The notes beneath the pieces are model-generated. The model ran no database searches. It was not told the DNA's origin and saw nothing but the letters and a program-made list of their open reading frames with translations. 20,394 nucleotides of DNA from a virus. Location: positions 1 to 20,394 of the IMG/VR virus record IMGVR_UViG_3300042307_000144, one strand, 5' to 3'. The position numbers and the translations under genes are program-made. This document shows positions 1-20,394 of the stretch, one piece after another (within the stretch, counting starts at the first letter, position 1; each line of letters opens with the position of its first letter).

Positions 1-3000
1 TTAGTTACTTCGGTAGCTAGTGGTTCTACATTTAGTGGTTCGGTATTCCTTTCATCTGGCTCTATCTTTAGTGGTAGTGGTGCAGGATTGTTCGACATAC
101 CGAGAACGGCATTGGCACCTGATGCGTTAGTTGCTACTTTAATAGGAAGTGGTAGTGTAACCGCATCGGTATCTCCTAATAATGGATTTGTAGTTACATC
201 TGCTGATAGTGGTTCTCAATTTACAGGTTCTATTAATGTAAGTGGAAGTGTAACGGCTCAATTCTTTTTTGGTGATGGTTCTCAATTAACAAATGTTCCA
301 TCAGTAGAATCTGCTAAAATAGCAAGTGGTAGTGTAACGGCATCAGTTTCACCTGATTTAGGATTTGTAGTGGAATCGCCTGATAGTGGTTCTACATTCT
401 TTGGTAATGTAACTCTTTCATCAGGCTCTATATTTAGTGGTAGTGGAGCAGGATTATTCGATATTCCTCGTTCAGCTTTAACTCCGGATGCATTATTTGC
501 TACATTGATAGCAAGTGGTTCGGTAACTGCTTCTGTATCACCTGATAGAGGATTGGTTGTGGTATCTGCTGAAAGTGGTTCTGAATTTACGGGTTCAGTT
601 GATGTTAGTGGAAGTGTAACCGCACAATTCTTTGTGGGAGATGGTTCTCAATTAACAAACATACCAGCATTAACCGCACCTCGTATAGCTAGTGGTAGTG
701 TAACTGCATCGGTAGAAGATGGACAAAGATTTAAAGTAATATCTGCAGCAAGTGGTTCTGAATTTACAGGAAGTGTTAATATATTTGGTTTAGTTTCAGC
801 ATCGGTATATAGTGGTAGTGGAGCAGGATTATTTGATATTCCTCGTTCCGCTTTAACAGCAGATGCACTTGCTGCTAATTTAATATTTAGTGGTTCGGCA
901 ACAGCATCTATTTCACCTATTGCTGGATTTAGAGTTAATGTTGATTCTTATATTGATGGTAATTTATATGTAAGTGAATCTATAATAGCAGAATCTATTA
1001 TTGTAAATTTTGTTTCATCTTCAATAATTTATTCATCGGGCTCAAATATATTTGGTGATGAATTAACTGATAAGCAACAATTTACAGGCTCAGTTGATGT
1101 AACGGGTTCTCTTAAAGTTAACGGAATTGTAACTGCATCTTTATATAGAGGTGATGGTAGTGGATTATTTAACATTCCATTATCAGCATTATCTGAAGAT
1201 AGTTTTAAAATAGCAACGGGTTCGGTAACGGCTTCGGTTGATTCGGAAAGAGGATTTATAGTTCAATCTATTGATAGTGGTTCAGAATTTACAGGTTCTA
1301 TAGAAGTTAGTGGAAGTGTAACCGCACAATCATTTAGTGGTTCATTTAGTGGTAGTGGTGCTAATTTATTTAATATACCATTATCTGCATTATCTGATGA
1401 ATCTAAACGAATAGCAACCGGTTCAGTAACAGCATCAGCAACAATAGAAGGATTCTATGTTCAATCGAGATTATCTGGTTCACACTTCAATAGTGATGTA
1501 ACTATAACAGGTTCATTAACTGTTAGTGGAAGTAATACATTTAGAAACTTTGGACCTGCTGTATTTACGGGCAACACTCAATTTATTGGTGATACAACGT
1601 TTACGGGAAGTTTATTTATAACGGGCGGTAACATCATATTAGCACCTGATGCATTCTTCTCAGGTTCTGGTGCTGGATTAACTAACATTCCATTCTCCAA
1701 TTTAACGGGAGATGCTGCTAGAATAGCAAGTGGTAGTGTAACGGCATCGGTAAGTGATAACAACGGATTTGTTGTTAAATCAATCTCAAGCGGTTCTCAG
1801 TTTACGGGTAGTTTAAAAGTAAACACATCTATTGATGGATTGGTAGCAAAATACGCAACTGAATTTGATGTAACTGCTAGTAATTTACAATATTTAATTA
1901 ATAATGAATTTACAAATGTAATTAATTTAGTTAGAGGTGAGACATATACATTTAATGTAAGTGTTCCTAATAACGCATTTTACATAAAAACTGAAGGAAT
2001 AACAGGTGGTGGTAGCACATATGAAGATGGTGTTACTGGTAATGGAACTGATGTTGGAACAATTACATTTGTAGTTCCAAACAACGCACCTAATACTCTT
2101 TATTATAATAGTGAATATCAATCAACATTAACTGGTATATTCAAAATATATGATTCAATACCAACTTCACCTATAATATTAATTGGTGATACTACAATTA
2201 CGGGTTCTTTAATTGTAAGTAGAGATATTGAAGCAAAGAGTTTTAGTGGTAGTGGTGAAAATTTATTTAATATACCTGAATCTGCATTATCATTTAATAT
2301 CGCTAGAATTGCAAGTGGTAGTGTAACTGCATCCGTAAGTGATGAGAGTGGATTCGTTGTTAAATCAGTTGCAAGTGGTTCAATATTTAGTGGAAGTGTT
2401 TTCTTAAGTAGTGGTAGTATATTTAGTGGTAGTGGTGCTGGATTATTTGATATTCCGAGAACGGCATTAGCACCTGATGCATTAACATCAACTGCATTGG
2501 CATCGGGCTCAGTAACGGCATCTGTATCGCCTGATTTAGGGTTTGTAGTTATATCACCTAATAGTGGTTCTACATTCACAGGTTCACTTAATATTACGGG
2601 TTCTGTATCAGCATCTATATTCAGAGGGGATGGTAGTGGATTATTCAATATTAGTATATCTAATTTAGCATTAGATTCATCTAAAATATTTACGGGTTCT
2701 GTAACGGCATCAGTTCACGCGGATGGATACTTTAGAGTATTTGATGCAACTGGTAGTGTAGCTTCTGAATTTAGTGGTAGTTTATATGTATCTGAATCTG
2801 CATACGCAAGATTCTTTGTTGGAGATGGTTCTCAATTAACAAATGTTCAAGCAGCAGCTGCACCATTAATAGCAAGTGCTAGTGTAACTGCATCAGTTGC
2901 GGATGGACAGAGATTTATTGTAAAATCTGCCGCAAGTGGTTCGCAATTTACGGGTTCTATAAATGTAAGTGGTTCAATATCAGCATCACTATTTAGAGGC

Positions 3001-6000
3001 GATGGTAGTGCATTATTTAACATTCCATTAGATGCATTAGAAGGACTTCAATTGGATAGAATCCAATCGGGTTCATCAACTGCTATTATTAGTAACCAAT
3101 TATTAGTTAATGTTCCGGTATCATCATCATTATTTAGAGGAGATGGTAGTGGATTATTTAATATACCACTAAGTTCATTAGAGAATCTTCAATTAAGTAA
3201 AATTAATTCAGGTTCATTCCAAGCAGAAATATCACCAAATAAAGGATTGCAAGTTAACACATCGGCTAGTATAGCTGGTAACTTAAATGTAACAGGTGGT
3301 TTATTTGTAACGGGTGGTAATATAGTAGCAGCAACAGGTTCGGGATTTGTTGGAGATGGTAGTGGATTAACTAATATCACAATTGCTAATTTAGCATTTG
3401 AAACGGCTATATTAAAGAGTGGTTCATTTACGGCATCTATTTCACCTGATAAGGGATTTGTTGTAAATACATCCGCATCAATTTGGGGTAATCTTTATGT
3501 TGGTGATAATGTTACAGCTTATGATATAACGGCATCTCATAGAATATTTGCACCTACAGTAACAGGTTCTTTATTAGGAACTTATAAATTCCAGGGTGAA
3601 GGCCCAACTGCATCTGCAGAATACAATGTGTTAAGATATGATACTAATAGAGAATATTATGTTCCTCAACCGGATTTTAGTTTAACTGAAGTAGTATCAT
3701 TTGCAAACCAAACGGATTTATATGTAACGCATAGTTTAGGTGTTAGATATCCGGTTGTTCAAATATATGAAACAGGCTCAGCTGGAACTGAAGCTCAGAT
3801 TTTACCATTGGACATTATTTCAATTAATGAAAATGTAACAAGAATAAGATTTAGTGGAGTTACAACGGGTAAGGTTGTAGTTGGAAGTGGTGGTTCGGTA
3901 TTAAGTGGAACAATCGAAGGTAATAGAGTATTAGGAACAGTCCTTTCAGCATCATTTGCAGTTAATGCTGGAACTGCTGAAAGTATTCAGGGATTTGACT
4001 CGGCATCATTATCGGCATTATCAGCATCTTTAGCAGGTGGTTCTCAATATGTATTGAATTCACAAACCTCATCTATGAGGGTGTTTTCATCATCATTTGC
4101 AAGTATAGCTGAATTTGCACTAAACGCAACTACAATTGATACGGGTTCGTTTGTTCAGACATCACAAACTGCATCAATGAGTGTGTTGTTTGCACAAACT
4201 GCATCTTATGTAAGTGGTTTGGGTAATTTGACTGGATTGGTCCAATCATCACAAACGGCTTCAATGTATGTTTACTCAGCATCATTTGCATCAGTTGCGG
4301 AATTCGCTCTGAATTCACAAAATGTTGATACTGCATCATTTGTTCAAGCAAATCAAGATAGTGTAATTAACGCTAACTTATTAGTTAGTGGTAGTTTAGG
4401 TGTGAGTGGTAGTTTATATTTAAATTTCCCAACAACAGGTTCTACTTCTCAGATAGCATTAGTTTATAACAATACAACAAAGAAGGTAGAAGCTAGAGCA
4501 TTATCTGAAATATCGGGAACTTCGGGAACATCTGGTTTAGATGGAACAAATGGAACATCGGGAACTTCGGGTACAGCAGGAACAAGCGGAACTGCTGGAA
4601 CAAGCGGAACTGCTGGAACAAGCGGAACATCTGGCGTTGATGGAACATCAGGAACTGCTGGAACTTCGGGAACTGCAGGGACAAGTGGAACTGCTGGAAC
4701 ATCTGGTACAAGTGGTATAGATGGAAGTAGTGGAACATCGGGAACTAGCGGAACTGCGGGGACTAGTGGAACTGCTGGAACAAGCGGAACTGCGGGGACT
4801 AGTGGAACTGCTGGAACAAGCGGAACGGCTGGAACATCAGGAACTGCTGGAACGAGTGGAAGTAGTGGTTCATCAGGAACCGCAGGAACGAGTGGAACTG
4901 CAGGGACAAGCGGAACTTCAGCAACAAGCGGAACTTCAGGAACTTCGGGAACATCAGGAAGTAGTGGTTCTTCTGGCTCATCGGGAAGTAGTGGAAGTAG
5001 TGGAAGTAGTGGTTCATCGGGAAGTAGTGGAAGTAGTGGTTCATCGGGAAGTAGTGGTTCTTCGGGAAGTAGTGGTTCTTCGGGAACAAGCGGAACATCA
5101 GCAACGAGCGGAACATCAGGAACATCGGGAAGTAGTGGTTCATCAGGAACTGCTGGGACAAGCGGAACTGCGGGAACGAGTGGAACTGCAGGAACGAGTG
5201 GAACTGCAGGAACGAGCGGTAGTAGTGGAACTGCGGGAACAAGCGGAACTGCTGGAACGAGTGGTAGTAGTGGAACTGCGGGAACAAGTGGAACTGCTGG
5301 GACAAGTGGAAGTAGTGGAAGTAGTGGTATAGATGGAACATCAGGAACGAGTGGAACTGCAGGAACAAGTGGAACGGCAGGGACTAGTGGAACTGCAGGA
5401 ACGAGTGGAACTGCTGGAACAAGCGGAACTGCTGGAACTTCGGGTTCATCAGGTACTAGTGGAACATCGGGAATAAGTGGAACAAGCGGAACTAGTGGAA
5501 CTAGTGGAAGTAGCGGAAGTAGTGGTTCATCCGGAACATCGGGAACATCCGGAACTACTGGAACGAGTGGAAGTAGTGGAACATCTGGAACTACAGGAAC
5601 GAGTGGTAGTAGCGGTACATCAGGATTGGATGGAACTTCGGGAACAAGTGGTGTTGATGGAACATCAGGTACAAGTGGTATCGATGGAACTTCGGGAACA
5701 TCAGGAACATCGGGAATAGATGGAACTTCGGGAACAAGCGGTATAGATGGAACTTCGGGAACATCAGGAACATCGGGAATAGATGGAACTTCGGGAACAA
5801 GCGGAACGAGTGGAGTTGATGGAACAAACGGAACATCAGGAACTTCGGGAACAAGTGGTATAGATGGAACTTCGGGTTCATCGGGAACATCAGGAACTTC
5901 GGGAATTAGTGGAACAAGTGGAACTTCGGGTTCAAGCGGAAGCAGTGGAACGAGTGGAACAAGTGGCCAAAGTGGAAGTAGTGGAACGAGTGGAACTGCT

Positions 6001-8301
6001 GGAACATCAGGCACAAGTGGTATCGATGGAAGTGCGGGAACTTCAGGAACTTCGGGAACTGCTGGAACATCAGGTACAAGTGGTATAGATGGAACTTCTG
6101 GAACGAGTGGAAGTAGTGGAACGAGTGGAACTACGGGCACATCAGGAACATCAGGAACTGCTGGAACAAGCGGAACGGCAGGGACTAGTGGTAGTAGTGG
6201 AACGAGTGGAACGGCTGGAACATCAGGAACAGCAGGAACATCGGGAACTGCTGGGACAAGTGGAACGAGTGGTGTTGATGGAACGAGTGGAACATCTGGA
6301 ACATCGGGAACTACTGGAACATCAGGAACTTCGGGAAGTAGTGGAACGGCTGGAACATCAGGAACTTCGGGTATAGATGGAACAAGCGGAAGTGCTGGAA
6401 CTTCGGGAATTTCAGGAACTGCTGGAACAAGTGGAACTGCTGGAACTTCGGGAACGAGTGGTATAAGTGGAACATCAGGAACTGCTGGAACAAGCGGAAC
6501 TTCGGGAATCGATGGAAGTAGTGGAACATCGGGAATCGATGGAACTTTTGGAACTAGTGGAACTGCTGGAACAAGTGGAACTGCTGGAACATCAGGAACT
6601 TCGGGAATTGATGGAACTTCAGGTATAGATGGAACGAGTGGAAGTGCAGGAACATCAGGAACTACTGGAACAAGCGGAACTGCAGGAACTTCTGGAACTG
6701 CTGGAACAAGCGGTATTAGTGGAACATCAGGTACAAGTGGTATAGATGGAACATCGGGAACTGCTGGAACAAGCGGTAGTGCTGGAACATCTGGTACTAG
6801 TGGATTAGATGGAACATTCTTTGGTAGTAGTGGAACAAGCGGAACTTCGGGAACAACGGGTACGAGTGGGACTGCAGGAACAAGCGGAACTGCAGGAACA
6901 TCGGGAACAAGCGGTGTGGATGGGACAAGTGGAACTGCTGGAACATCTGGTACGAGTGGTATCAATGGAACAAGCGGAACTAGTGGAACATCGGGCACAT
7001 CAGCAACTTCGGGAACAAGTGGTTTAGATGGAACTTTCTTTGGTTCATCAGGAACTTCAGGAACTTCTGGAGAAAGTGGAACATCAGGTATTGATGGTTC
7101 ACATGGAACATCAGGAACTTCGGGAACAAGCGGAAGAGATGGAACATTCTTTGGAAGTAGTGGAACTTCAGGTACAAGTGGTGTAAGTGGAACAAGCGGA
7201 ACTACGGGTACAAGTGGTAGTAGTGGAACGAGTGGATTGGATGGAACATTCTTTGGAAGTAGTGGAACATCGGGAAGCAGTGGAACATCAGGTATTAGTG
7301 GTTCTGCGGGAACTTCGGGAACTGCTGGAACGAGTGGAACAAGTGGTTTAGATGGAACATACTTTGGTTCATCGGGAACTTCGGGTATAACAGGAACTTC
7401 GGGAACAACTGGAACATCTGGTACAGCAGGAACTTCGGGAACAAGCGGTTTAGATGGAACATTCTTTGGAAGTAGTGGAACTTCAGGAACATCAGGAACT
7501 TCGGGAACTACAGGAACATCAGGAACTTCGGGAACGAGTGGATTGGATGGAACTTATTTTGGTTCATCGGGAACTTCGGGAACTGCTGGAACAAGTGGAA
7601 GTGATGGAACAAACGGAACTTCGGGAACATCTGGTACAAGTGGATTAGATGGAACTTTCTTTGGTTCATCTGGTACAAGTGGAAGTAGTGGAACTTCTGG
7701 ATTGGATGGCTCAAACGGAACTTCGGGAACATCAGGAACAAGCGGTTTGGATGGAACATACTTTGGTTCTTCGGGAACTTCGGGAACTTCAGGCTCATCA
7801 GGAACTTCAGCAACAAGTGGAACGAGTGGAACATCGGGTACATCCGGACTTTTATTATTAACTGGAACAACTGATAATGGTGTAATAACTTATGTTAACG
7901 CAACCGGATTTGGACAAGTTGAAAGTAGTTTTAAATTTGATTCTAGCAAATTAGAAGTTACTGGTTCTGTAAACCCAACTATTTATAGTGAAACTCATGC
8001 TTCTTTAGGAACGGGTGGTAGTGTAACTTTAGATTTAGCAACGGCTAATAACTTTACAAGAACTGTAAATGCGAACACAACATTTACATTTGGTAGCCCA
8101 CCACCTAATAGAGCATTTGGATTTACAATAGCATTGGTAAATGCAGGAGCATATGTTATAACTTGGCCAAACACTGTTAGATGGGCAGGAGCAACCGCAC
8201 CAATATTAACATCAGCTGGAACTGATGTATTGACTTTCTATACTTTGGATGGTGGTAATAACTACTATGGTTTCTTAATTGGATTAAACATGTCAACTTA
8301 A
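1..8301 (+). CDS. Giant collagen-like tail fibre protein, 5' partial (fibre 1)
   Basis: This is a virion fibre subunit, expected to trimerise and project from the tail. The reading frame is open from base 1, so the true start lies upstream; the TTG at 88 is an internal Leu codon inside a repeat and not a start. 2,766 residues are visible. In order: tail-fibre modules of about 60 residues, with motifs such as SGSVTASV and [10 protein letters not shown] (1 to about 3500); a cupredoxin-like insert near 1900-2160; a beta domain containing [15 protein letters not shown] (about 3682-3900); two SQTASM-type modules (about 4050-4350); a Gly-X-Y tract (4516-7848); then a cap whose end contains WPNTVRWAG and [11 protein letters not shown], a pattern common at phage fibre C-termini. 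No S74 chaperone is present. It is followed after 13 bases by the next gene. Fibre identity is confident; host receptor and virion position cannot be read. Confidence 0.88.
145..3450 (+). repeat. Tandem fibre modules of about 180 nt in fibre 1
   Basis: A degenerate unit of roughly 177-198 nt (59-66 residues) recurs in frame. The SGSVTASV-type element is seen near 145, 322, 511, 688, 886, 1213, 1411, 1726, 2311, 2500, 2689 and 2869, each usually followed by SGSxFTGS and a GDGS/GSGA-x-LxNIP element. Bases 1-130 closely match about 2353-2490 (shared [14 protein letters not shown]), so the array has duplicated internally. Related motifs occur in the 9707 and 10400 genes. Confidence 0.8.
1900..2160 (+). 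other. Cupredoxin-like domain insert in fibre 1, copper ligands lost
   Basis: Translation gives [20 protein letters not shown], then [12 protein letters not shown] and [14 protein letters not shown]. This order resembles plastocyanin-type domains found in phage fibres, where the usual end is like YYxCxxHxxMxG preceded by an HPFWI-like strand. At the four expected type-1 copper positions I read Asn (about 1972), Ser (2110), Gln (2119) and Leu (2128). The fold assignment rests on motif memory; loss of the ligands is read directly once that alignment is accepted. Confidence 0.6.
4957..5082 (+). repeat. Fourteen consecutive Gly-Ser-Ser triplets
   Basis: A 126-nt block inside the fibre 1 tract encodes 14 GSS triplets in a row. 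It mixes GGA-AGT-AGT units with GGT/GGC-TCN-TCG units, so both serine codon families are used and the DNA is less repetitive than the protein. Confidence 0.9.
6811..7767 (+). repeat. Nine GT(F/Y)FG one-residue interruptions of the Gly-X-Y tract
   Basis: The element DGT(F/Y)FGSSGTSG, mostly preceded by GL, begins its GGA codon at 6811, 7030, 7141, 7243, 7354, 7456, 7549, 7651 and 7753. After the first 219-nt gap, spacing is 93-111 nt, always a whole number of triplets plus one residue. Each copy adds one residue and two aromatics (or Tyr-Phe), shifting the glycine register once. Confidence 0.9.
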
Positions 8302-8314
8302 AATATGAATAGTT

Positions 8315-9211
8315 ATGGGAATATTTAGAAGATTAGTGCCATTGGATGGTGGGGGAGAGCCCATTCCATTTAAAATTCAAGTAACAACTACTTCGAATGG
8401 GCAAATATTTACATTACCATTGGTAAGTTTTGGTTCGTTTGCAACGGATATTGAAGTAGCTTGGGGAGATGCTACTCCCACTTCCACAATAACATCTGTA
8501 GGCGATTCTGATAGAATACATACATATGCAACCGCTGGAGTTTATACTGTTGAAATAATTGGTCAGATGCCTGGATTTAAAGTTAATAATAATGCGGCAA
8601 TACGTTCACTTATTACGGGCATTATAGATTTTGGTAGAGTTGGTTTAAGAACTTTAGATTTTAACGGATGTACAAATATAACATCTATACCAGCTAGTGG
8701 CACAATGGAAGTTGGTTATAGAGGATTGAATAATATAATTTCTTTTGCGGGATTTATGAGAGGTACAGGAATAACTTCCATACCTGCTGATATATTTGAT
8801 TTTTCACCATCAGCAACAACATTTAGTGATATATTTTCATTTACATCGGTAACGGCTATACCAACGGGATTGTTTGATAATTCTACAAATGCAAATAGTT
8901 TCGCATCGGCATTTAACTCATGTACATTATTGAATACATATTCTGCTAATCTATTTGCAAGTTCAACAAATGCAATTAACTTTTCATCAACATTTAGAAA
9001 TTGTTTAGCATTAACATTTGCACAACAATTTACAGCAAATACCTCCGTAACAATATTTGATAATGTGTATAATATGTCAACTACATCAAACGCTTTAGAT
9101 GGTAATGCACCTACACTTTGGTCAAGAAGTCCAACACCATCTGGAACTGATGCATTCAACAATTGTACAGGTTTGGATAATTTTGCATCAATACCCCTAA
9201 ATTTTAAATAA
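8315..9211 (+). CDS. PKD-like / BspA-like repeat protein, candidate receptor-binding tail protein
   Basis: A 298-residue protein, probably a virion or fibre-tip accessory. Residues about 18-85 look PKD-like, with VAWGD (48-52) and HTYATAGVYTVEI (69-81), the typical end of that beta-sandwich. Residues about 95-295 resemble BspA/DUF285-type leucine-rich repeats seen in bacterial surface proteins: IP-x-x-(I/L)F, FSSTFRNC and AFNNCTGLDNF elements recur about every 22-25 residues. No signal peptide or membrane segment is visible. It starts 13 bases after the giant fibre and ends one base before the tail assembly chaperone, so it is very likely co-expressed with tail genes. Both domain types mediate protein or glycan contacts in other proteins; host binding here is inference. 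Confidence 0.65.
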   Translation: MGIFRRLVPLDGGGEPIPFKIQVTTTSNGQIFTLPLVSFGSFATDIEVAWGDATPTSTITSVGDSDRIHTYATAGVYTVEIIGQMPGFKVNNNAAIRSLITGIIDFGRVGLRTLDFNGCTNITSIPASGTMEVGYRGLNNIISFAGFMRGTGITSIPADIFDFSPSATTFSDIFSFTSVTAIPTGLFDNSTNANSFASAFNSCTLLNTYSANLFASSTNAINFSSTFRNCLALTFAQQFTANTSVTIFDNVYNMSTTSNALDGNAPTLWSRSPTPSGTDAFNNCTGLDNFASIPLNFK

Positions 9212-9212
9212 T

Positions 9213-9659
9213 ATGTATTTAAGAATTATAGAAGAAAATATAGAATACCCATATAGTGTAGAACAACTTAGAAAAGATGCTTATAATGTAAGCTTTCCGG
9301 AAACTATATCCGATTCTACATTAGAAGAATTTGGATTATATAAAGTTGAATTAACTCCTAAACCAAACGATTACACAAAAAATATTATCGAAGGAACTCC
9401 CATTCTAACGGATGGTGTGTATTATCAAAATTGGATTCAAACTGATGCAAGTGAAACTGAAATAAGTGGAAGGATAATACAAAAATGGGCAGAGATTAGA
9501 GAACATAGAAGTGAATTACTTAAAGAGTGTGATTGGACAGTTTTATCCGATACACCACTAAGTAGTTCACTTGAAAATTGGAAAACATATAGACAAGAAT
9601 TGAGAGATATTACATCACAAGAAAATCCTTTCAATATTATCTGGCCAAATCAACCATAA
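9213..9659 (+). CDS. Phage tail (fibre) assembly chaperone-like protein
   Basis: A 148-residue protein with the hallmark C-terminus of the Phage_tail_APC type: RSELLKECDWTVLSDTPL (99-116), WKTYRQELRDITSQ (123-136) and a closing WPNQP. Members of this family sit beside tail-fibre genes and are thought to help fibre folding or attachment. The N-terminal half (YPYSVEQLRKDAYNVSFPE, then TDGVYYQNW) also looks like the usual leader of such proteins. ATG follows the previous stop by one base, which points to translational coupling. The position between two giant fibres fits a chaperone for one or both. No catalytic motif is expected or seen. Confidence 0.75.
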   Translation: MYLRIIEENIEYPYSVEQLRKDAYNVSFPETISDSTLEEFGLYKVELTPKPNDYTKNIIEGTPILTDGVYYQNWIQTDASETEISGRIIQKWAEIREHRSELLKECDWTVLSDTPLSSSLENWKTYRQELRDITSQENPFNIIWPNQP

Positions 9660-10055: not shown

Positions 10056-10388
10056 ATGGCAAACGTATTTAAAAATAGTGTAACTGGTTCGATAGGACTG
10101 ACTAATACGAAAGTATATCAGGCACCTGCTGGTACTGTTACTACTGTAATTGGTTTAAGTGTTGCAAATGTGCTTACACAAAATATAAGTGTGAATGTAA
10201 CTGTAACCGATTCATCCGCTACTAAAACAAATCATTTAGTAAAAAATGCTTTGATTACTGAAGGCGGGTCTATAGTAGTAATTGGTGGAGACCAAAAAGT
10301 AGTATTGGAGGCTAATGATTTTATATCAGTAGTTTCAACTCAAGCAACATCGGCTGATGTAATTGTTTCAGTTTTAGAAATATCGTAA
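10056..10388 (+). CDS. Small virion structural protein, beta-rich
   Basis: A 110-residue protein with alternating hydrophobic strands: KVYQAPAGTVTTVIGLSVAN, NISVNVTVTDSS, HLVKNALITEGGSIVVIGGD, QKVVLEANDFISVVS and ADVIVSVLEIS. The pattern is familiar from small structural proteins of marine and freshwater tailed phages, where the GGDQKVVLE-type segment is conserved; I cannot name a precise family. No signal peptide or membrane helix is seen. It lies 16 bases after the previous gene and 11 before the second giant fibre, with a purely A/T upstream region and no Shine-Dalgarno. Probable role: decoration or tail component. Confidence 0.6.
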   Translation: MANVFKNSVTGSIGLTNTKVYQAPAGTVTTVIGLSVANVLTQNISVNVTVTDSSATKTNHLVKNALITEGGSIVVIGGDQKVVLEANDFISVVSTQATSADVIVSVLEIS

Positions 10389-10399: not shown

Positions 10400-13300
10400 A
10401 TGGCGTATAACGGCAAAGCACCTAATGGATTCAATCAACTAAGCTCAAGCTTAGTAGCACTATTTGTGAGTGGAAGTAGATCTGCGGATTTTCAACCAAC
10501 TGCATCACAATTTTTCGGCAGTGTATCCTCCTCTGCTTTTTTGGGTGATGGTTCGGGTTTAACAAATTTATCAGTTGATTCATTAGGAGATATAACAACA
10601 TTAAAATCCGGCTCAACTACGGCAGTTATTTCTCCAAATCAGGGATTACGAGTTAATACGGCATTAACGGTAAGAGATTTTTTAATTGTAACTGGTTCAA
10701 CTACTATTGGTAGTAATTTAGTAGTAACGGGTTCAATAACAACTAATAATAATATCACTTATAATGGTGGTAGTGATTTTACAATTTCAAATAGTGGAAA
10801 TGGTAATCTTATAGTTGATACAAATGGAGCAGGAAAAATATTATTACAAAGTCCAACCGAAATCACAGGCAATTCTTTAGTTACTGGAGATTTAAGAATA
10901 ACTGGAACATTATCAGCTAGTTTAGTATCAACTACATTTATTACATCATCTCAGTTAAATGTATCTACTAATTTAATTACAATGAACACCGATTCTAATA
11001 CAATTAGATATGGTGGTATTGCGGTAATAGATTCGGGTTCAGCACCATATAGAAGTGGTTCATTATTATTTGATTCGGTGCAAGATAGATGGATATATGT
11101 TCATCAAGCAGCTGCTGGGAATACAATAACCTCATCTATTTTAATGATGGGGCCTGAAACATATAATTCATTAGGAAGTGAAACTCAAATAACTAGAAAC
11201 CGATTAACAAAAGGTTCGGCAGGACAAAGTGGTGAACATATTTCCGATTCTAATATAGAAGATAATGGTTCAAAAGTAAGAGTAAATTCAAATACAGAAA
11301 TTACAGGTTCATTAATTGTTACTGGTGATAAAATAACAGTAAACGCTATTGGTGGAGATGAGGGAGGTGAAATTTTATTAGGAAAAGCAATAACCAACAC
11401 AACACTTGTAGGTGAAGGTGTAACAATAGATGTTTTTCAAAATAGATTAAGATTTTTTGAGCAAGGTGGAACTGCTAGAGGAGGGTATCTTGATATATCT
11501 ACTTTAACTGCGGGAGTTGGAACAAATTTAGTAACTGCGGGAACGTCGGGAACATCTGGTACATCGGGTACAAGTGGAGTTAATGGTACTAGTGGAACTT
11601 CAGGTTCTTCAGGAACATCAGCTACAAGTGGAACATCGGGTGTAAGTGGAACTTCAGGTTCTTCGGGAACATCAGGAACTTCGGGAGTTAGTGGAAGTAG
11701 TGGAACAAGTGGAACGAGTGGAAGTAGTGGAACATCAGCAACATCGGGAACTTCGGGAAGTAGTGGAACTAGAGGAACAAGTGGAACATCAGGTACAAGT
11801 GCAACATCAGGTTCAAGCGGAAGTAGTGGAAGTAGTGGTTCTTCGGGGACAAGTGGTGTAAGTGGAGCCGGTGGAACTTCGGGTTCATCAGGTACAAGTG
11901 GAACATCGGGTAGTAGTGGAACATCAGCAACGGCGGGTTCATCAGGAACTTCGGGAACTAGAGGAACATCAGGAACTTCGGGAACTTCAGCAACAAGCGG
12001 AACTAGTGGGACAAGTGGAACATCAGCAACCGCAGGTTCGAGTGGAAGTAGTGGTAGTAGTGGAACTTCGGGAAGTAGTGGAACTTCTGCAACAAGCGGA
12101 AGTAGTGGAACTTCAGGAACATCAGGTACAAGTGGAACATCAGCAACTGCGGGTTCTTCGGGAACAAGCGGTAGTAGTGGGACTAGTGGTATAAGTGGAG
12201 CAGGTGGTTCTTCGGGAACTACTGGTAGTAGTGGAACGAGTGGAACATCAGGAACATCTGCAACAAGCGGAACAAGTGGAACATCTGCGACAAGCGGAAC
12301 ATCGGCAACTTCGGGAAGTAGTGGTAGTTCTGGTATTACTGGAGCAGGTGGAGGAAGTGGTTCTTCGGGAAGTAGTGGAACAAGTGGAACATCTGCAACT
12401 GCAGGTAGTAGTGGAACGAGTGGAACTAGAGGGACAAGTGGAACTTCAGGAACAAGTGGTATAAGTGGAGCAGGTGGTTCTTCGGGTCTGACTGGTTCTT
12501 CGGGAACTTCGGGAACGAGTGGAACTTCAGGAACATCAGCAACTGCGGGTAGTAGTGGAACGAGTGGAACTAGAGGGACAAGTGGAACTTCAGGAACATC
12601 AGCAACTTCGGGAACGAGTGGAAGTAGTGGAAGTAGTGGTTCATCGGGAGCACAAGGAACTTCAGGCTCAGCAGGAACTTCGGGAACAAGTGGAACTTCG
12701 GGAACAAGCGGAACATCCGGCACCTCAGCAACAAGCGGAACATCGGGAACATCAGCAACAAGTGGAAGTGGTGGTAGTAGTGGAACGAGTGGAACTAGAG
12801 GAACATCGGGAACTTCGGGAACGAGTGGTGTGAGTGGAGCATCTGGCTCAAGCGGAAGTAGTGGAACATCGGGAACAAGCGGAACATCAGCAACTTCGGG
12901 AACAAGCGGAACATCCGCAACTTCGGGAACGAGTGGTTCATCTGGTACAAGTGGAACATCGGGAACTTCAGCAACGAGTGGAACATCAGCAACTTCGGGA
13001 ACAAGCGGAACATCAGCAACTTCGGGAAGTAGTGGTGTAAGTGGAACTTCAGGAACTTCGGGAACGGGTGGTAGTAGTGGAACAAGTGGAACTAGAGGAA
13101 CATCAGGAACTTCGGGAACTTCAGCAACATCAGGAACTTCAGCAACAAGCGGAACTTCCGGTTCATCTGGTACAAGTGGGTTATCGGGAGCAACAGGTTC
13201 ATCGGGAAGTAGTGGAACATCGGGAACTTCAGGAACATCTGCAACAAGTGGAACGGGTGGAAGTAGTGGAACTTCCGGAACATCAGGAACATCAGCAACA

Positions 13301-15304
13301 AGCGGAACTTCAGCAACGAGTGGAACGAGTGGAACTTCAGCAACTTCTGGAACAAGTGGAACTAGGGGGACAAGTGGAACTTCGGGAACATCCGGAACAA
13401 GTGGAACATCGGCAACATCAGGAACTTCGGGAACATCAGCAACATCAGGAACTTCGGGAGCTAGTGGAACAAATGGAGTATTATCATTAACAGGAGCAAC
13501 TGATAATGGTTTAATAACATTAAATGGAACGGCACCAAATGCAACAGTTGAAACTAATTTAACATTCGATGGAGCAACACTTACATTAACAGGTGACCAA
13601 ATCGTAAGAGCAGCGGCAACACAAGATGGTGTAAGATTAGTTGGTAGAGCAGGTGGAACTGGAAACTTCAGAGTAAGTATTACTCCTGAAACTTTATCGG
13701 CAGATAGAACCCTAACTCTTGCTAATGGTAATACTACCTTAGTAACGGGAACGATGGTTTCTACTACGAGAACTATCACAATAAATGGAACTACAAACCA
13801 AGTAGTTTCATCAGCAGGTGGACAAGATTTATCATCAAATAGAACTTGGACATTATCCCTACCACAAAATATTCATACAGCAGCAACTCCAACATTTGGT
13901 GGATTAACTCTTTCGGGAGCACAATCTATAACAGGTGGTGGATTAACTATAAGAACTGCGGCAACGCAAGATGGTGTAATAATAGCAGGTAGAGCAGGTG
14001 GAACGGGTACTTTTGATGTAACAATTTCTCCAACAACTCTAACCGCTGATAGAACTTTAACATTAGCAGATGGTAACACTACTTTAGTTGGTGGAACAAT
14101 GCTTACAACGGCTAGAAGTATATCTACAACTGGAGGTATTACGGGTGGAGGTGATTTATCAGCAGATAGAACATTCACAATTGCAGATGGTGCATTAACA
14201 AACGCTAAATTAGCAAACTCATCTATAACCGTAACTGCGGGAACTGGTATGAGTGGAGGTGGTGCAGTATCATTGGGTGGAACTGTAACATTAACAAACG
14301 CGGGTGTAACTTCAAATGTAGCAGGAACAGGTATTAGTGTAAGTGGTGCTACGGGAGCAGTAACAATTACGAATACGGGTGTAACATCTTTAACAGGAAC
14401 ATCGAATCAAATTTCAGTAAGTGCTGGAACGGGAGCTGTAACATTATCAACTCCTCAAAATATTCATACGGCAGCAACACCCACATTTGCTAGACAAACT
14501 TTAAGTGGAACGCCAACCGTATGGAGTGCAACAACTCCTGGTACAGGAAATGGTGATTTACATTTAGGTTCTGCGAGTGGAACAGCTAACGCTGGTTTTG
14601 CAATAACTTTTGGAGCAAGAGATGCAAGTTCGGGTGGAAACGGTCAAGCGGGTATCTATATTAACTCAGATGGTTCATACGGTACAAGAATGTATATCGC
14701 TACAACCGATTCATATGCTACTGGTGCGAGAACTGCAATCAGTATTAATGAAGGTGGTGCCGTTAGTATAATAAGAAGCGGATTAACATTATCAGCAGAT
14801 TCAACATCAATATCATTCTCATCTGCAACTGGAGCTAAAACAATATCAACAGGTGGTTCAACCGATTTATTTTTAAGTCCAGGCGGTAATGTAAGAATTG
14901 GAACTGCTGGAACATCTGTAGCAGCTAAATTGCAAGTTGGTGGTGATATTAGAGCAACGGGTGAAGTTGTAGCATACGCAGCATCTGATAAAAATCTAAA
15001 GGATAATATCCAAAAAATAGAATCTCCATTAGAAATTATTTCTAAAATAGGTGGTTATACATTTGATTGGAATAAAAATCAACAAACATATACAGGCAAA
15101 GATTACGGAGTAATTGCACAAGAAATTGAGGAAGTAATGCCTGAATTAGTAATTACTCGTGAAAGTGGTTATAAGGCAGTTAATTACGAAAAAATTATAC
15201 CTTTATTGATTGAATCCATAAAAGAGCAGCAGAACGCCATAGTAGCCCAACAAACTGAAATTAAAGAGTTAAGAGAAGTAATAAACAACATTTTAAATAA
15301 GTAA
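10400..15304 (+). CDS. Collagen-like tail fibre with C-terminal S74 chaperone (fibre 2)
   Basis: A complete 1,634-residue fibre. Residues 1 to about 380 hold N-terminal attachment-type and fibre modules ([12 protein letters not shown] near 50; GGIAVIDSGSAPYRSGSLLF, then DRWIYVHQ). Residues 381-1026 are a Gly-X-Y tract without proline or aspartate. A cap follows, with a TGATDNGLIT motif also found after the tract of fibre 1, then a beta-rich shaft with internal duplications. The end is an S74 intramolecular chaperone (from Ser1529) with a coiled-coil-like tail. In known endosialidase-type fibres this domain drives trimerisation and then cuts itself off. The ATG follows the previous stop by 11 bases. 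Being a fibre is confident; its receptor specificity is unknown. Confidence 0.9.
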   Translation: MAYNGKAPNGFNQLSSSLVALFVSGSRSADFQPTASQFFGSVSSSAFLGDGSGLTNLSVDSLGDITTLKSGSTTAVISPNQGLRVNTALTVRDFLIVTGSTTIGSNLVVTGSITTNNNITYNGGSDFTISNSGNGNLIVDTNGAGKILLQSPTEITGNSLVTGDLRITGTLSASLVSTTFITSSQLNVSTNLITMNTDSNTIRYGGIAVIDSGSAPYRSGSLLFDSVQDRWIYVHQAAAGNTITSSILMMGPETYNSLGSETQITRNRLTKGSAGQSGEHISDSNIEDNGSKVRVNSNTEITGSLIVTGDKITVNAIGGDEGGEILLGKAITNTTLVGEGVTIDVFQNRLRFFEQGGTARGGYLDISTLTAGVGTNLVTAGTSGTSGTSGTSGVNGTSGTSGSSGTSATSGTSGVSGTSGSSGTSGTSGVSGSSGTSGTSGSSGTSATSGTSGSSGTRGTSGTSGTSATSGSSGSSGSSGSSGTSGVSGAGGTSGSSGTSGTSGSSGTSATAGSSGTSGTRGTSGTSGTSATSGTSGTSGTSATAGSSGSSGSSGTSGSSGTSATSGSSGTSGTSGTSGTSATAGSSGTSGSSGTSGISGAGGSSGTTGSSGTSGTSGTSATSGTSGTSATSGTSATSGSSGSSGITGAGGGSGSSGSSGTSGTSATAGSSGTSGTRGTSGTSGTSGISGAGGSSGLTGSSGTSGTSGTSGTSATAGSSGTSGTRGTSGTSGTSATSGTSGSSGSSGSSGAQGTSGSAGTSGTSGTSGTSGTSGTSATSGTSGTSATSGSGGSSGTSGTRGTSGTSGTSGVSGASGSSGSSGTSGTSGTSATSGTSGTSATSGTSGSSGTSGTSGTSATSGTSATSGTSGTSATSGSSGVSGTSGTSGTGGSSGTSGTRGTSGTSGTSATSGTSATSGTSGSSGTSGLSGATGSSGSSGTSGTSGTSATSGTGGSSGTSGTSGTSATSGTSATSGTSGTSATSGTSGTRGTSGTSGTSGTSGTSATSGTSGTSATSGTSGASGTNGVLSLTGATDNGLITLNGTAPNATVETNLTFDGATLTLTGDQIVRAAATQDGVRLVGRAGGTGNFRVSITPETLSADRTLTLANGNTTLVTGTMVSTTRTITINGTTNQVVSSAGGQDLSSNRTWTLSLPQNIHTAATPTFGGLTLSGAQSITGGGLTIRTAATQDGVIIAGRAGGTGTFDVTISPTTLTADRTLTLADGNTTLVGGTMLTTARSISTTGGITGGGDLSADRTFTIADGALTNAKLANSSITVTAGTGMSGGGAVSLGGTVTLTNAGVTSNVAGTGISVSGATGAVTITNTGVTSLTGTSNQISVSAGTGAVTLSTPQNIHTAATPTFARQTLSGTPTVWSATTPGTGNGDLHLGSASGTANAGFAITFGARDASSGGNGQAGIYINSDGSYGTRMYIATTDSYATGARTAISINEGGAVSIIRSGLTLSADSTSISFSSATGAKTISTGGSTDLFLSPGGNVRIGTAGTSVAAKLQVGGDIRATGEVVAYAASDKNLKDNIQKIESPLEIISKIGGYTFDWNKNQQTYTGKDYGVIAQEIEEVMPELVITRESGYKAVNYEKIIPLLIESIKEQQNAIVAQQTEIKELREVINNILNK
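11540..13477 (+). repeat. Gly-X-Y tract of fibre 2 with periodic Gly-to-Ala sites
   Basis: 646 residues (215 triplets plus a final Gly) with no register-shifting insertions. Triplets are mostly GTS and GSS, with GTR (about seven), GAG, GVS and GIS. About 29 [12 protein letters not shown] sites replace the obligate Gly by Ala. No Pro and no Asp are seen. If triple-helical, its length would be about 185 nm. Confidence 0.9.
13613..14122 (+). repeat. Duplicated shaft module in fibre 2
   Basis: Two in-frame copies (13613-13777 and 13958-14122, offset 345 nt) share AATQDGV, GRAGGTG, ADRTLTLA and GNTTLV. A shorter duplicate, PQNIHTAATPTF, occurs at 13862 and 14453. These are typical beta-structured fibre-shaft duplications. 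Confidence 0.85.
14984..15301 (+). other. S74 intramolecular chaperone domain and autocleavage site
   Basis: Residues 1529-1634 of fibre 2 begin with SDKNLKDNI, the signature of the peptidase S74 / endosialidase-type chaperone, followed by GYTFDWN, YGVIAQEIEEVMPELV and VNYEKIIPLLIESI. In known members cleavage occurs just before the signature Ser, here Ser1529 (codon 14984), using a Ser-Lys dyad. This would release a 106-residue chaperone ending in a helical segment rich in Gln and Glu. Confidence 0.9.
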
Positions 15305-15351
15305 TACTTATCTAAAGTGATGTTAATATTGAATAATAAAGTTTAAAAACA

Positions 15352-15600: not shown

Positions 15601-15604
15601 AATG

Positions 15605-15636: not shown

Positions 15637-15651
15637 TTAAAATGTTTTGTT

Positions 15652-16098
15652 ATGAAATTAAGTTACAAAGAATCTATGTCCGAATATGAATTAAAAAACA
15701 TAGTTTGGAATGGAATTGACTACGATAAAAGAAAACTTATTAGATTTGTTGAAAAATACGAATATCTAAAAACTCTTGCTGAAACGGATGAAGTAAAAGA
15801 AGAAATCCAAATAATGGATGGAATACTTAAATCCCACAACTCTGATAATCTTCAGAAACTCTTACAAAACGATTTAGAATATAGTAGATGGGCTACTATA
15901 GAAAGATTAGCAAGAAAAGTATCCACCGAAGTTCTTTTGGATGGAAAATACTCTAAACATACTTTTGAAACCATAAGTAATTTACCAATTGTAGATTATA
16001 AATTAATAATTAGACGTTCTAAGGAACTAATTAATATCATTAACGAAACAATTGCTGAAGCTGAAATGGATACATCTAAAATACCTGGTGTAAAATGA
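15652..16098 (+). CDS. Protein of unknown function, first gene of the cassette
   Basis: A 148-residue, highly charged and probably all-helical protein; I do not recognise a family. Lys/Glu-rich stretches such as DYDKRKLIRFVEKYEYLK and EVKEEIQIMDGILK suggest helices, with no signal peptide, membrane segment or catalytic motif. I chose the ATG at 15652 because the in-frame TTG at 15634 lies inside the promoter -7 element. The stop overlaps the next start (ATGA at 16095), so it is probably translated together with the following glycosyltransferase. It could be a regulator or accessory factor of the cassette, but nothing in the sequence decides this. Confidence 0.65.
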   Translation: MKLSYKESMSEYELKNIVWNGIDYDKRKLIRFVEKYEYLKTLAETDEVKEEIQIMDGILKSHNSDNLQKLLQNDLEYSRWATIERLARKVSTEVLLDGKYSKHTFETISNLPIVDYKLIIRRSKELINIINETIAEAEMDTSKIPGVK

Positions 16099-16808
16099 GT
16101 ATCTACAAAAACACTTTATGGCAAGGGTTACCAACATCGGTAGCTATATTAGTTCCGAGTAAAGATACGGTATATTCTCACTTTGCTTATTCATTAAGTA
16201 ATTTGGTTAAGACAACTACACAAATGGGAATTGAAACTCATTTGTTTTTTGATGCTTCAACTATTCTAATAAATCAAAGAGAAAGTTTAATCAAACAGGC
16301 AATAGAAGTTGGAGCAGAATGGGTTCTTTGGTTAGATAGTGATATGATGTTCCCACCAACCACCCTATTAAGGTTACTATCACACAATCAAAATATTGTG
16401 GGGTGTAACTATATGAAAAGAACATACCCCTTTAAATCGGTTGCATATACCGATACAAGCGATTGGGAAAGTTGGATACCCATACAATATTCAGATGAAT
16501 TGGTAACTGCTGAGGCAATGGGAATGGGTTGTGTATTAATGAGGACTGAAATATTCCAAAAATTACAAAAACCATACTTCGAATACACATATCAGCCAAA
16601 AACAGAAGATTGGGGAGGTGAAGATTTTACTCTATTTAAGAAATTAAATAAATTGGGTTATGAGTTAAAGATAGATATGAATTTAAGTAATGAAATAAAC
16701 CATATTGGAACTTTTGCCTATGGTAGGACCGTATCTACTAATGAGGTTAAGAAAAAAGAGTGGAAATCTAAAGAAAATAAGAAAAAAGATTTGGAAAATA
16801 CTAAATAA
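16095..16808 (+). CDS. GT-A fold glycosyltransferase (GT2-like)
   Basis: A 237-residue enzyme expected to transfer a sugar from a nucleotide-sugar donor in the cytoplasm. It starts with a Rossmann-like strand (SVAILVPSKD, 15-24). The sequence AEWVLWLDSDMMFP (74-87) carries the metal-binding DxD motif at 81-83. NIVGCNYMKRTYPF (100-113) and EAMGMGCVLMRTEIF (140-154) form the acceptor side. WGGEDFTLFKKLNKLG (173-188) and the NHIG histidine (about 203) complete the GT-A pattern. A Lys-rich tail (about 218-235) may be disordered. Its start overlaps the upstream stop by ATGA. The donor and acceptor cannot be read from the sequence; the adjacent Thr/Ser-rich fibres or a host glycan are candidates. 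Confidence 0.8.
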   Translation: MSIYKNTLWQGLPTSVAILVPSKDTVYSHFAYSLSNLVKTTTQMGIETHLFFDASTILINQRESLIKQAIEVGAEWVLWLDSDMMFPPTTLLRLLSHNQNIVGCNYMKRTYPFKSVAYTDTSDWESWIPIQYSDELVTAEAMGMGCVLMRTEIFQKLQKPYFEYTYQPKTEDWGGEDFTLFKKLNKLGYELKIDMNLSNEINHIGTFAYGRTVSTNEVKKKEWKSKENKKKDLENTK

Positions 16809-16821: not shown

Positions 16822-16831
16822 CCAATATTTT

Positions 16832-17557
16832 ATGATAACTGACCAATTTTACATAGAAAACTTTATAACAACCAATGAAGGTGTGGATATACCATTCAGA
16901 TGGACACATGGAGCTACTATAAAGCACATGGGTGATGGATTATTGGTATATTCTATCATTCAACATATGAGAGCAAAGGTTTGTGTGTGTATTGGGAGTG
17001 GTGGAGGGTTTATTCCACGCATTATGACTCAAGCGAGGATGGATTTGTGGGAACAACAAATATTTGAAGGAAGTAATGATAAGAATTGGGGAGATATTGG
17101 AACAACTTACGTTGTTGATGCTTGTAATGGAGTTGGTGGTAAATCTGATATAGAAGATGAGAGTTCTTTGTTTAGAAGTGCGTTTCATCCACGATTTATA
17201 AAAGAAACATCTGAAAAGGCATACTATGATTTCTTTGTTAAGCAAGATATTAAGATAGATGTTCTTTTTATAGATGGTGACCACTCATATGAAGGTGTTA
17301 AGTTGGATTTTGATTTATATTCAACGATGCTTTCAGATAAAGGTATTATAATGATACATGATACTGATGAATCTTATGAAAATAATTTAATTGTATCTGA
17401 AGATTCTAAAAAACATTGGGATAAATTTGATGGACCTGCTAAATTGATAAAAGAATTGGCTGATAATAAAGATTGGAATATAATTAACCTTTTCAATCAT
17501 AAAATATTACCAAATAAACCTTCATCAACCGGTATAACTTTATTGAATAGAAAATGA
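16832..17557 (+). CDS. Class I SAM-dependent methyltransferase (Methyltransf_24-like)
   Basis: A 241-residue enzyme predicted to transfer a methyl group from S-adenosylmethionine. Motif I is VCVCIGSGGGFIPRI (50-64). The segment KIDVLFIDGDHSYEGVKLDF (141-160), followed by GIIMIHDTD (171-179), is typical of the Methyltransf_24 and cephalosporin-hydroxylase-like group, whose members often sit in glycan or secondary-metabolite clusters. The gene has its own candidate promoter and overlaps the next gene by ATGA (17554), so it is co-translated with a glycosyltransferase. Methylation of a sugar is the simplest reading. A small-molecule or protein substrate remains possible. Confidence 0.75.
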   Translation: MITDQFYIENFITTNEGVDIPFRWTHGATIKHMGDGLLVYSIIQHMRAKVCVCIGSGGGFIPRIMTQARMDLWEQQIFEGSNDKNWGDIGTTYVVDACNGVGGKSDIEDESSLFRSAFHPRFIKETSEKAYYDFFVKQDIKIDVLFIDGDHSYEGVKLDFDLYSTMLSDKGIIMIHDTDESYENNLIVSEDSKKHWDKFDGPAKLIKELADNKDWNIINLFNHKILPNKPSSTGITLLNRK

Positions 17558-18405
17558 TAAGATTAGTTACTGTTATTGGACATGGTGTGGAATTATTACC
17601 ACATTTTATTTCTCACTACACAAAATATGTAGATGAGATTTGTATTGTTACTTATAATTCAGAATTACATCCAAATATAGATGATGAAGTTAGAGCAATA
17701 ACCGATAATCTATTTAATGTTAAGATTGTGGGAACGACAAGACATAGAATATTTGATTGGGAGGAAGTTACCAAATTATATAATCAGGCTACTTCTAAAT
17801 ATGGGGATGATTGGTGGGTTATTGCAGATATTGATGAGTTTCATTTATATCCAAAGGATAATCTCAAAGAAATGGTTAGTGATTGTGATAGAAGAGGATG
17901 GGATGTAGTTAGAGGTGGCTTTATTGATAGAGTTGGTAAAGATGGAACATTTCCTCACATAACCGATGAATTTATTTTTAAACAATTCCCAATGATGGGA
18001 TTTTTTAGATATCCGATGAGTGGGGCTTGTCCAAATAAGATTTGTGTAAAGAAAGGATATGTTAAAATAACACCCGGTCAACATTACGCTGAATTTGATG
18101 GGCATACTACTTGGAGATGGCAAGGTTGGAATCATCCACTAATAGCACCAATAGATGAGTATTCAGTTCAAGTCCATCACTTTAAATGGGATGCTAGTTG
18201 TATAGAAAGAATACAAAAGGTAGCTGATATTGGACAAGAATATGCATACTCTGATGAGTATAAAAAGATGTATGAAGAATTACGAAAATCTAAATTTTTG
18301 ATAGATATATATAAGAATGAATTTATGTTTGAGAATTCCTCAATAGCGGAATTTCGCAGATATAGAGCTTGGAACAAATTAATAAAAAAAATAGTATCGT
18401 TATGA
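17554..18405 (+). CDS. Glycosyltransferase, GT2/GT92-like
   Basis: A 283-residue enzyme of the Glyco_tranf_2_4 / GT92-like kind. The N-terminus LVTVIGHGVELLPHFISHYT (4-23) matches the common opening in which the chain says where the acceptor site lies. DWWVIADIDEFHLYP (86-100) holds the metal-binding DID motif (92-94). GGFIDRVGKDG (121-131) and the late VHHFKW (207-212) supply a catalytic-site histidine typical of this group. No membrane helix or signal is seen, so it is cytoplasmic. It overlaps both its upstream and downstream genes by ATGA. The sugar and acceptor are unknown. Confidence 0.78.
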   Translation: MIRLVTVIGHGVELLPHFISHYTKYVDEICIVTYNSELHPNIDDEVRAITDNLFNVKIVGTTRHRIFDWEEVTKLYNQATSKYGDDWWVIADIDEFHLYPKDNLKEMVSDCDRRGWDVVRGGFIDRVGKDGTFPHITDEFIFKQFPMMGFFRYPMSGACPNKICVKKGYVKITPGQHYAEFDGHTTWRWQGWNHPLIAPIDEYSVQVHHFKWDASCIERIQKVADIGQEYAYSDEYKKMYEELRKSKFLIDIYKNEFMFENSSIAEFRRYRAWNKLIKKIVSL

Positions 18406-18578: not shown

Positions 18579-18584
18579 TAAGTT

Positions 18585-20003
18585 ATGGCTAAATTAGGTG
18601 TAATAGTTCCCTATAGAGATAGGTATAAACATTTACTTAGTTTCAAAAAAAGTATTATAAAACATTTAAACGCAGCTGGTATTGAGTTCGAACTAATTGT
18701 AGTGGAACAAGATGGTGGAACTGCATTTAATAGAGGTAAACTTCTAAACATCGGTTTCCTAACCGCTGAGAAACTAAATTGTGATTATGTTGTATTTCAC
18801 GATATAGATATGTTGCCGGTGGAAGTTGATTACAGCTTCTCATCGGTGCCATTGCACCTAGCCACAAACTTTGTATCTGAATCAAAAACTAAAAGAACAC
18901 TATTCGATGAATATTTTGGAGGTGTTACTTTATTTCCTGTAGATTTGTTTAGACGTATAAACGGATACTCAAATAACTATTGGGGTTGGGGATTTGAAGA
19001 TGATGATTTACTCTACCGTTGTAAGTTGAATGGAATTCCGTTAGAAGAGAAAGAAATAAAAAACGTTGGTGGTAATACAGCTGCATTAAAGTTTAATGGT
19101 AACAATGCATATGTTAAAGGTAAGAATGTAATTAACGTTAGGAGACCTTTAACTATATTTGTTTCGTTTTCACCAAATGAAACTGTTTTAAATTACAAAA
19201 AAGATAAAGATATCTATGGTGTGGTTGGTATACCTGGTTATGATTTATTAATATCATATAGTTCGTATAAGAGATACAACTTTGAAATTTTTGATAATGA
19301 AAACGAAGTAATATACATAAGTACGGATATTAAACCTCATTATAAAACAAACGTAGCTATAACAATAGACCCAACTAAGAAACATATAATTATGTATCAG
19401 GATGGTGAGTTTGTTAAACGATTGATGTATAAAACTCCTTTATACAATTACATCAGAGAACCATATTTTTATTTAGGTTGTGCAGACCCATTAAGAACTG
19501 ATGATGAAAAAATGTTCAATGGGTTAATCAATTCAGTAGCAATTTATGATGAGGCTTTAGAGCCTGATGAAATATTTGATATTAGTAATAACAAATACTT
19601 TGGGTTAACTCAAAATTTTAAAGATTATAAATCAGCACATAAATTAAAATTATATTATGATGCTAAATTCATTAAAGATTATAAATTGATTGATTTGAGT
19701 GGAAGGGGTAATGATGGTGAAATTGTAAATTGTGAAATGGTTGGATATGATATTGAAGATAGTAAATTAATAGAAGTTCCTTTCAGAAGAGAATGTACTT
19801 TTAAGTTACTAGCGCATGCTGAGAATGGATATACCAATAATGAGTGGAGAGAAAAAACAACCAGATATAATCAATTAAAATTTCAAAACGAAGTAAGTAA
19901 AGGACATATTGATACAAACGAAGAGGGTTTAAATAATTGCTATTTTACAGAGCATTCTAGAACAAAAGTTAATAATCAAACACATATTATAGTAGGCTTA
20001 TGA
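18585..20003 (+). CDS. GT7-type galactosyltransferase with an inserted LamG-like domain
   Basis: A 472-residue enzyme resembling beta-1,4-galactosyltransferases (family GT7). Core motifs: LGVIVPYRDRYKHL (4-17), FNRGKLLNIGF (48-58), VVFHDIDMLP (69-78, metal DxD at 73-75), DEYFGGVTLFP (108-118) and WGWGFEDDDLLYRC (133-146). In normal GT7 enzymes the metal-binding His follows the EDDD motif by about 30 residues. Here the matching C-terminal part, KLLAHAENG (His411) with EGLNNCYF (447-454), comes about 270 residues later. The intervening region (about 163-400) looks like a concanavalin/LamG fold: AALKFNGNNAYV, IIMYQDGEFV, FNGLINSVAIYDEALEPDEI and DLSGRGNDG. The stop overlaps the next start (ATGA). 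The donor is probably UDP-galactose or a related sugar; the acceptor is unknown. Confidence 0.82.
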   Translation: MAKLGVIVPYRDRYKHLLSFKKSIIKHLNAAGIEFELIVVEQDGGTAFNRGKLLNIGFLTAEKLNCDYVVFHDIDMLPVEVDYSFSSVPLHLATNFVSESKTKRTLFDEYFGGVTLFPVDLFRRINGYSNNYWGWGFEDDDLLYRCKLNGIPLEEKEIKNVGGNTAALKFNGNNAYVKGKNVINVRRPLTIFVSFSPNETVLNYKKDKDIYGVVGIPGYDLLISYSSYKRYNFEIFDNENEVIYISTDIKPHYKTNVAITIDPTKKHIIMYQDGEFVKRLMYKTPLYNYIREPYFYLGCADPLRTDDEKMFNGLINSVAIYDEALEPDEIFDISNNKYFGLTQNFKDYKSAHKLKLYYDAKFIKDYKLIDLSGRGNDGEIVNCEMVGYDIEDSKLIEVPFRRECTFKLLAHAENGYTNNEWREKTTRYNQLKFQNEVSKGHIDTNEEGLNNCYFTEHSRTKVNNQTHIIVGL

Positions 20004-20394
20004 GTCACAAGTTAGGTATATGTATTCCTTATAGAAACAGACAAAAACATTTGGATGAATTAATTCCTGCGTTAACGGAGCATCTAAATAAGAAAGGAAT
20101 CGAACATGCTTTTTATATAGCACATCAAACGGATGATAAGTTATTTAATAGAGGTGCTATGAAGAATATAGCAGCTAAGCACGCGTTTGAAGATGGGTGT
20201 GATTACATAGCTTGGCATGATGTTGATATGATTCCATCGGATGATTGTGATTATAGTTATCCCGAAGAGATACCGATTCATATAGCAACTAAACTTTCAA
20301 AGTATAATTATGGAATGTCTTACCCTGAATACTTTGGTGGTGTTATTCTTTTTACAAAAGAACAAGTAGAAAAAACCAATGGTTACTCAAATGA
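20000..20394 (+). CDS. Second GT7-type galactosyltransferase, 3' partial
   Basis: Cut by the window end; 131 residues are visible. It is a clear paralogue of the preceding gene: LGICIPYRNRQKHL (5-18), LFNRGAMKNIA (48-58), YIAWHDVDMIP (69-79, metal DVD at 74-76) and EYFGGVILFTKEQVEKTNGY (110-129) align with the same blocks in the same order. The catalytic GWG-EDD block and any inserted domain lie beyond the window. Its ATG overlaps the upstream TGA at 20000-20003, so the two tandem enzymes are likely translated together. Both may add related sugars, or one may act on the product of the other. Confidence 0.82.
   Translation, partial: MSHKLGICIPYRNRQKHLDELIPALTEHLNKKGIEHAFYIAHQTDDKLFNRGAMKNIAAKHAFEDGCDYIAWHDVDMIPSDDCDYSYPEEIPIHIATKLSKYNYGMSYPEYFGGVILFTKEQVEKTNGYSN

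Follow-up and report, generated by a model that had tools for sequence, protein, structure and literature searches.

Near-total absence of GATC in DNA of an uncultured T4-like phage and across its clade

The tetranucleotide GATC is almost missing from a stretch of phage DNA in which dozens of copies are expected, which raises the question of whether the deficit reflects selection and, if so, what has imposed it. The window analysed here, 20,394 bp long, makes up the whole of an IMG/VR record. It is a piece of an uncultured T4-like, mostly freshwater (lake) phage, and the record is probably a fragment of that phage's genome. Both long fibre ORFs in the window consist largely of collagen-like SGTSG repeats, and the genes recognised are as follows.

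88..8301, + strand: fibre protein of 2737 aa with collagen-like SGTSG repeats, which may in fact begin outside the contig; GATC 0 vs 47.6 ± 5.4 (codon shuffle)
8315..9211, + strand: protein of 298 aa, PHROG 9915
9213..9659, + strand: tail (fibre) assembly chaperone
10400..15304, + strand: fibre protein of 1634 aa with collagen-like repeats and a C-terminal Peptidase_S74 chaperone; GATC 1 vs 25.7 ± 3.5 (codon shuffle)
16095..16808, + strand: glycosyltransferase, Anp1-like
16832..17557, + strand: class I methyltransferase domain (Methyltransf_24), inside the glycosyltransferase cluster
17554..18405, + strand: glycosyltransferase, family 2-like
18585..20003, + strand: galactosyltransferase-like protein (Glyco_transf_7) with a laminin-G domain

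The GATC deficit and its codon signature

An exact count over the 20,394 bp returned one GATC, at 10479-10482 within AGATCT, in agreement with a preliminary description of the same DNA. In the frame of the 1634-aa fibre ORF, close to whose start it lies, the site reads AGA TCT (Arg-Ser); G001 and G002, two contigs almost identical to the window, have it too. The preliminary description had put the expectation at several dozen copies, and this estimate is borne out by both models applied. A maximal-order Markov model, calculated from trinucleotides, gives 77.5 (O/E 0.01, below the value of 0.1 that marks site avoidance under a composition model), and a within-gene shuffle of synonymous codons gives 88.6 ± 6.6 (z = -13.3), with a lowest count of 73 among 200 shuffles of the window. 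The deficit is thus larger than codon use and protein sequence impose. No other four-base palindrome of the window comes close to GATC in its depletion under the Markov model. The absence, for which a palindrome count against Markov or codon-shuffled models had been proposed, stands outside the repeats as well: beyond the two collagen-like ORFs 0 copies were found vs 15.0 ± 2.4 expected by codon shuffle, so that the deficit is not a repeat artefact.

The same avoidance can be read from the choice of codons. Aspartate is encoded by GAT at 264 of the 269 positions where the next base is not C (GAC at 5/269), but exclusively by GAC, with no GAT, at the six positions where it is C (Fisher p = 8e-10). 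These positions, all of which lie within a few bases of those given when the codon switch was first described, are listed below.

10290..10293, + strand: Asp-Gln, GAC followed by C; a switch away from the usual GAT, the next codon starting with C
13595..13598, + strand: Asp-Gln, GAC followed by C; same switch
16841..16844, + strand: Asp-Gln, GAC followed by C; same switch
17279..17282, + strand: Asp-His, GAC followed by C; same switch
19368..19371, + strand: Asp-Pro, GAC followed by C; same switch
19485..19488, + strand: Asp-Pro, GAC followed by C; same switch

Likewise, glycine followed by TC is encoded by GGT in 94 cases, GGC in 12, GGG in one and GGA in none (n = 107, p = 1e-44). GGA is the commonest glycine codon in the window, and none of its 587 occurrences stands before TC; where GGA does precede serine, the serine codon is only AGT or AGC. 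The preliminary statement that glycine before a TCN codon is never GGA consequently holds (0/107), whereas its restriction to GGT and GGC has to be relaxed by the one GGG, which precedes TCT. The codon changes go both ways: T gives way to C where GAT becomes GAC, and A to T or C where GGA becomes GGT or GGC.

Missing words among the relatives

Three longer contigs are near-identical to the window (G002 99.9%, G001 99.7%, G003 98.9%), and a fourth, G004, shows 91% identity to it over 5.4 kb and extends into T4-like genes for tail sheath and tube. As the window has no sheath gene, its placement in a sheath clade rests on G004. By the G004 sheath, the closest cultured relative is Microcystis phage Mel-JY01 (PP395634, 47% aa), and after it come the uncultured LR756508 and the immuto phages of Flavobacterium. 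Relatives with 67-100% sheath identity, taken as the G004 sheath clade, amount to 39 loci after dereplication; GATC O/E is < 0.3 in 37 and < 0.06 in 27 of them, against 0/55 with O/E < 0.3 in the Flavobacterium immuto phages that served as control clade. The loss of GATC spans the window's phage clade and is not a feature of the window alone.

In a wider group of relatives, gathered with the glycosyltransferase family 2-like gene (17554..18405) as the query, the absence extends over far longer sequences. No GATC was found in contigs of 310,691 bp (G011, 975 expected), 269,133 bp (796 expected), 159,820 bp (G015, 473 expected), 106,461 bp (307 expected) and 80,716 bp (217 expected), and a contig of 145,144 bp (G049) holds 2 of 489. 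Similarly, the 190,001 bp of Mel-JY01 contain 0 vs 357 expected. Codon shuffling of the ORFs agrees with these zero counts (0 vs 717 ± 16 for G011), and a phage genome can evidently be cleared of GATC altogether even at 270-310 kb, where about 800-1,000 sites are expected. The words raised in its place are GATG, GATA, CATC, TATC and GAAC; replacements of so many kinds, together with codon changes that go both ways, agree with selection and make one mutational route improbable.

Which word is missing varies by phage, and in almost every case it is one that type II enzymes recognise. In G012 and G031 (L241-L259) GATC is normal and its place is taken by CCGG, with 0 copies vs 152 and 171 expected, respectively. 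G015 (L223-L230) lacks CATG (0/512) along with GATC, and G049 (L231-L238) lacks CTNAG (0/228), CATATG (0/38), AACGTT (0/19) and TACGTA (0/14) besides its near-loss of GATC. TTGCAA is absent from G011. Mel-JY01 contains no GATC, CTAG, GAATTC, GATATC, GGWCC, CTGCAG, GCCGGC, ACATGT or GGTACC, and TTATAA is reduced to 2/130. The status of GATC differs even between relatives that have many proteins in common: G011 has 0/975 and G031 610/751, though 103 of the 144 G031 proteins are matched in G011, and in the sheath tree the zero-GATC G011 and G045 adjoin the GATC-normal G031 and G023. The loss thus concerns a particular restriction word and varies among phages, and the absence of different type II words from different phages is the mark of restriction-site avoidance.

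Two further observations concern the cultured phage and its kin. About ten restriction words are absent or nearly so in Mel-JY01 (L217, L220, L221, L222), and among contigs with a Mel-JY01-like terminase (L318-L376) O/E is < 0.06 for TTAA in 6/43 and for GATC in 9/43.

Probable restriction by the host, and the alternatives

Long-running selection from GATC-cutting restriction endonucleases of the hosts very probably purged GATC from the window, the enzyme being one that we infer from the phage DNA. An escape from GATC-specific restriction was already the preliminary reading, and it is strengthened by the clade-wide absence, complete up to 310 kb, by the type II specificity of the word, by the purging of other words in relatives, and by the finding of no phage gene tied to the avoidance. 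The selecting enzyme would be of the DpnII/MboI/Sau3AI type, or a methyl-dependent relative of the DpnI type. Phage genomes bearing GATC would be cut on entry and point mutations that remove sites would be kept; a newly arisen GATC would be eliminated even at the cost of a rare synonymous codon, as in GAC before C and GGT or GGC before TC.

A Por-secretion (type IX, T9SS) C-terminal sorting domain in a protein of G011, from the wider group (L297, G011:300509-300739), suggests that the host of this phage belongs to the Bacteroidota; a second protein with a Por-secretion sorting domain was seen in G039 (L296). Photosystem reaction-centre genes, a marker of cyanobacterial hosts, were found in none of 50 records. 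A host scan of GTDB returned nothing but phage contigs inside bins and distant matches to glycosyltransferases. The related phage contigs, all with 0 GATC, were located in bins of Pelagibacterales and Flavobacteriales species (L301, L302, L303), from which a DpnII-family enzyme is absent; GATC-free contigs in both bins are likely to be misbinned phage, and such binning is weak as host evidence. In the class Bacteroidia, to which the Flavobacteriales bin belongs, the DpnII family is encoded by 9/395 genomes and the MutH/Sau3AI family by 16/395. GATC cutters exist in this class but are not common (a few per cent of genomes), and clade-wide persistence of the avoidance consequently needs a GATC system that recurs among the true hosts, or other families of GATC cutters.

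A deficit that arose with no selection, from biased mutation, base composition, the SGTSG repeats or the use of GATC-cutting enzymes in library preparation, might be considered for a window that is both repeat-rich and A+T-rich, and some library protocols do use GATC enzymes. This account is almost certainly wrong. Chance, composition and a repeat artefact are rejected by the Markov and codon-shuffle models, outside the repeats too, and the codon changes run both ways. A library artefact is rejected since a single metagenome (3300042391) yields one contig with 49/73 GATC (L044) and another with 0/24 (L214), and since a cultured phage, Mel-JY01, likewise has none. Alternatively, the phage clade could itself encode a GATC nuclease that destroys host DNA and to which its own GATC-free genome is immune. 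Such constant phage-borne pressure needs no common host enzyme and would fit an avoidance that is clade-wide and total over 310 kb. If true, what marks self DNA for an undescribed phage nuclease would be a missing word rather than methylation, and both the persistence over the clade and zero GATC in 270-310 kb would follow. However, genes of the DpnII and MutH/Sau3AI families, the two known families covered by the nuclease search, were found in none of 49 phage records (the closest contigs being fragments), and no protein family was detected that is present in all tested avoiders and in no non-avoiders. Moreover, GATC status flips among gene-sharing relatives, and several unrelated words have been purged together in Mel-JY01 and G049. 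On balance a nuclease of this kind is very unlikely.

The word GATC is also that of Dam and MutH, and many members of the wider group carry a gene for a D12-class adenine methyltransferase; both facts could point to Dam-related host biology, where un- or hemimethylated GATC is nicked by MutH or GATC methylation disturbs phage replication or expression. We nevertheless regard this as very unlikely. To clear 80-310 kb of every copy, selection on each site must be strong; type II words unrelated to Dam are purged equally completely in relatives, MutH-family genes occur in few Bacteroidia genomes, and the D12 gene hardly differs in sequence between avoiders and non-avoiders, that is, between zero-GATC and normal-GATC phages. 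The occurrence of the same gene in both classes also led to rejection of the D12 methylase as a cause of the GATC loss. The conserved D12-class gene (L081-L100) is kept even by phages with zero GATC, and its target is therefore likely to be a different word; none was found in the fragments G001, G002 or G004. Self-protection by a Dam-like GATC methylase of the phage's own, with GATC retained, was considered and did not agree with what was found. The Methyltransf_24 protein of the window (16832..17557) is no recognised GATC methylase, and has one weak PHROG match to a DNA methyltransferase family.

Selection by host restriction is a mechanism already known, and the window represents a new example, on a large scale, of an established way of evading restriction. 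In Staphylococcus phage K the elimination of GATC has been attributed to the host enzyme Sau3A (PMC6532042). Both cases concern a large virulent myophage that has eliminated GATC, with a host GATC restriction enzyme held responsible (PMC6532042). The two cases differ in that host and phage are unrelated, that the enzyme is known for phage K whereas the window's phage is known without its host, and that the wider group described here includes GATC-free genomes about twice as long. In the survey of Rusinov et al. 2018 (PMC6286503), roughly one phage genome in ten had lost the restriction sites of its host completely or nearly so, where elimination meant O/E < 0.1 and concerned orthodox type II sites in mostly non-temperate dsDNA phages, and GATC was under-represented in 46/46 phages whose hosts encode the enzyme (PMC6286503). 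The window conforms to this pattern in the elimination of orthodox type II sites; the survey dealt with phages of known hosts, whereas the present case is an uncultured clade in which the pressure has lasted over much protein divergence. Mel-JY01, as the closest cultured relative by sheath (47% aa), parallels the window's group with 0 GATC in 190 kb but has purged at least 8 further words completely, while the subclade of the window has retained some GATC and avoids GTAC. A literature search, of a kind that misses most subscription papers, returned no earlier report on the window's phage group or on Mel-JY01. What sets the present case apart is the unusually large scale and the variety of missing words across one uncultured group. 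The missing words are a record of the restriction enzymes that a phage has faced, readable from metagenomes without culture, and because relatives lack different sets of words, the restriction repertoires of hosts could be predicted from phage sequence.

GTAC and the window's own subclade

The 20-kb window lies at the low end of the GATC range within its own lineage. Its near relatives keep some sites (18/151 in G001, 25/159 in G004), neither falling below an O/E of 0.1, as the sister clades do, and the subclade as a whole retains about 12-20% of the expected GATC. Where G001 and G004 align (87% identity), 23 GATC sites were located, 7 common to both and 16 private to one, which indicates that sites come and go in this lineage. 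A depletion of GTAC, missed by the preliminary description, was observed in the same subclade, for which the window and contigs G001 and G004 (L101-L103, L107-L109) were examined. Outside the repeats the window has 7 GTAC vs 19.9 by codon shuffle, a significant difference; the corresponding values are 12 vs 86 for G001 and 7 vs 96 for G004, below the GATC level in both contigs, and GTAC is normal in the sister loci L152 and L155. In the sheath tree the subclade is nested inside a clade of near-zero GATC members. Together, these observations suggest a purge common to the clade, after which the window's subclade would have come under partly relaxed GATC pressure and newer pressure from a GTAC cutter.

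CATG, with 11 copies in the window vs 74 expected from the Markov model, was tried as a second avoided word and rejected as a repeat effect, the codon shuffle giving 9 vs 13. Unlike in the window, CATG is missing from the relatives G015 and L020.
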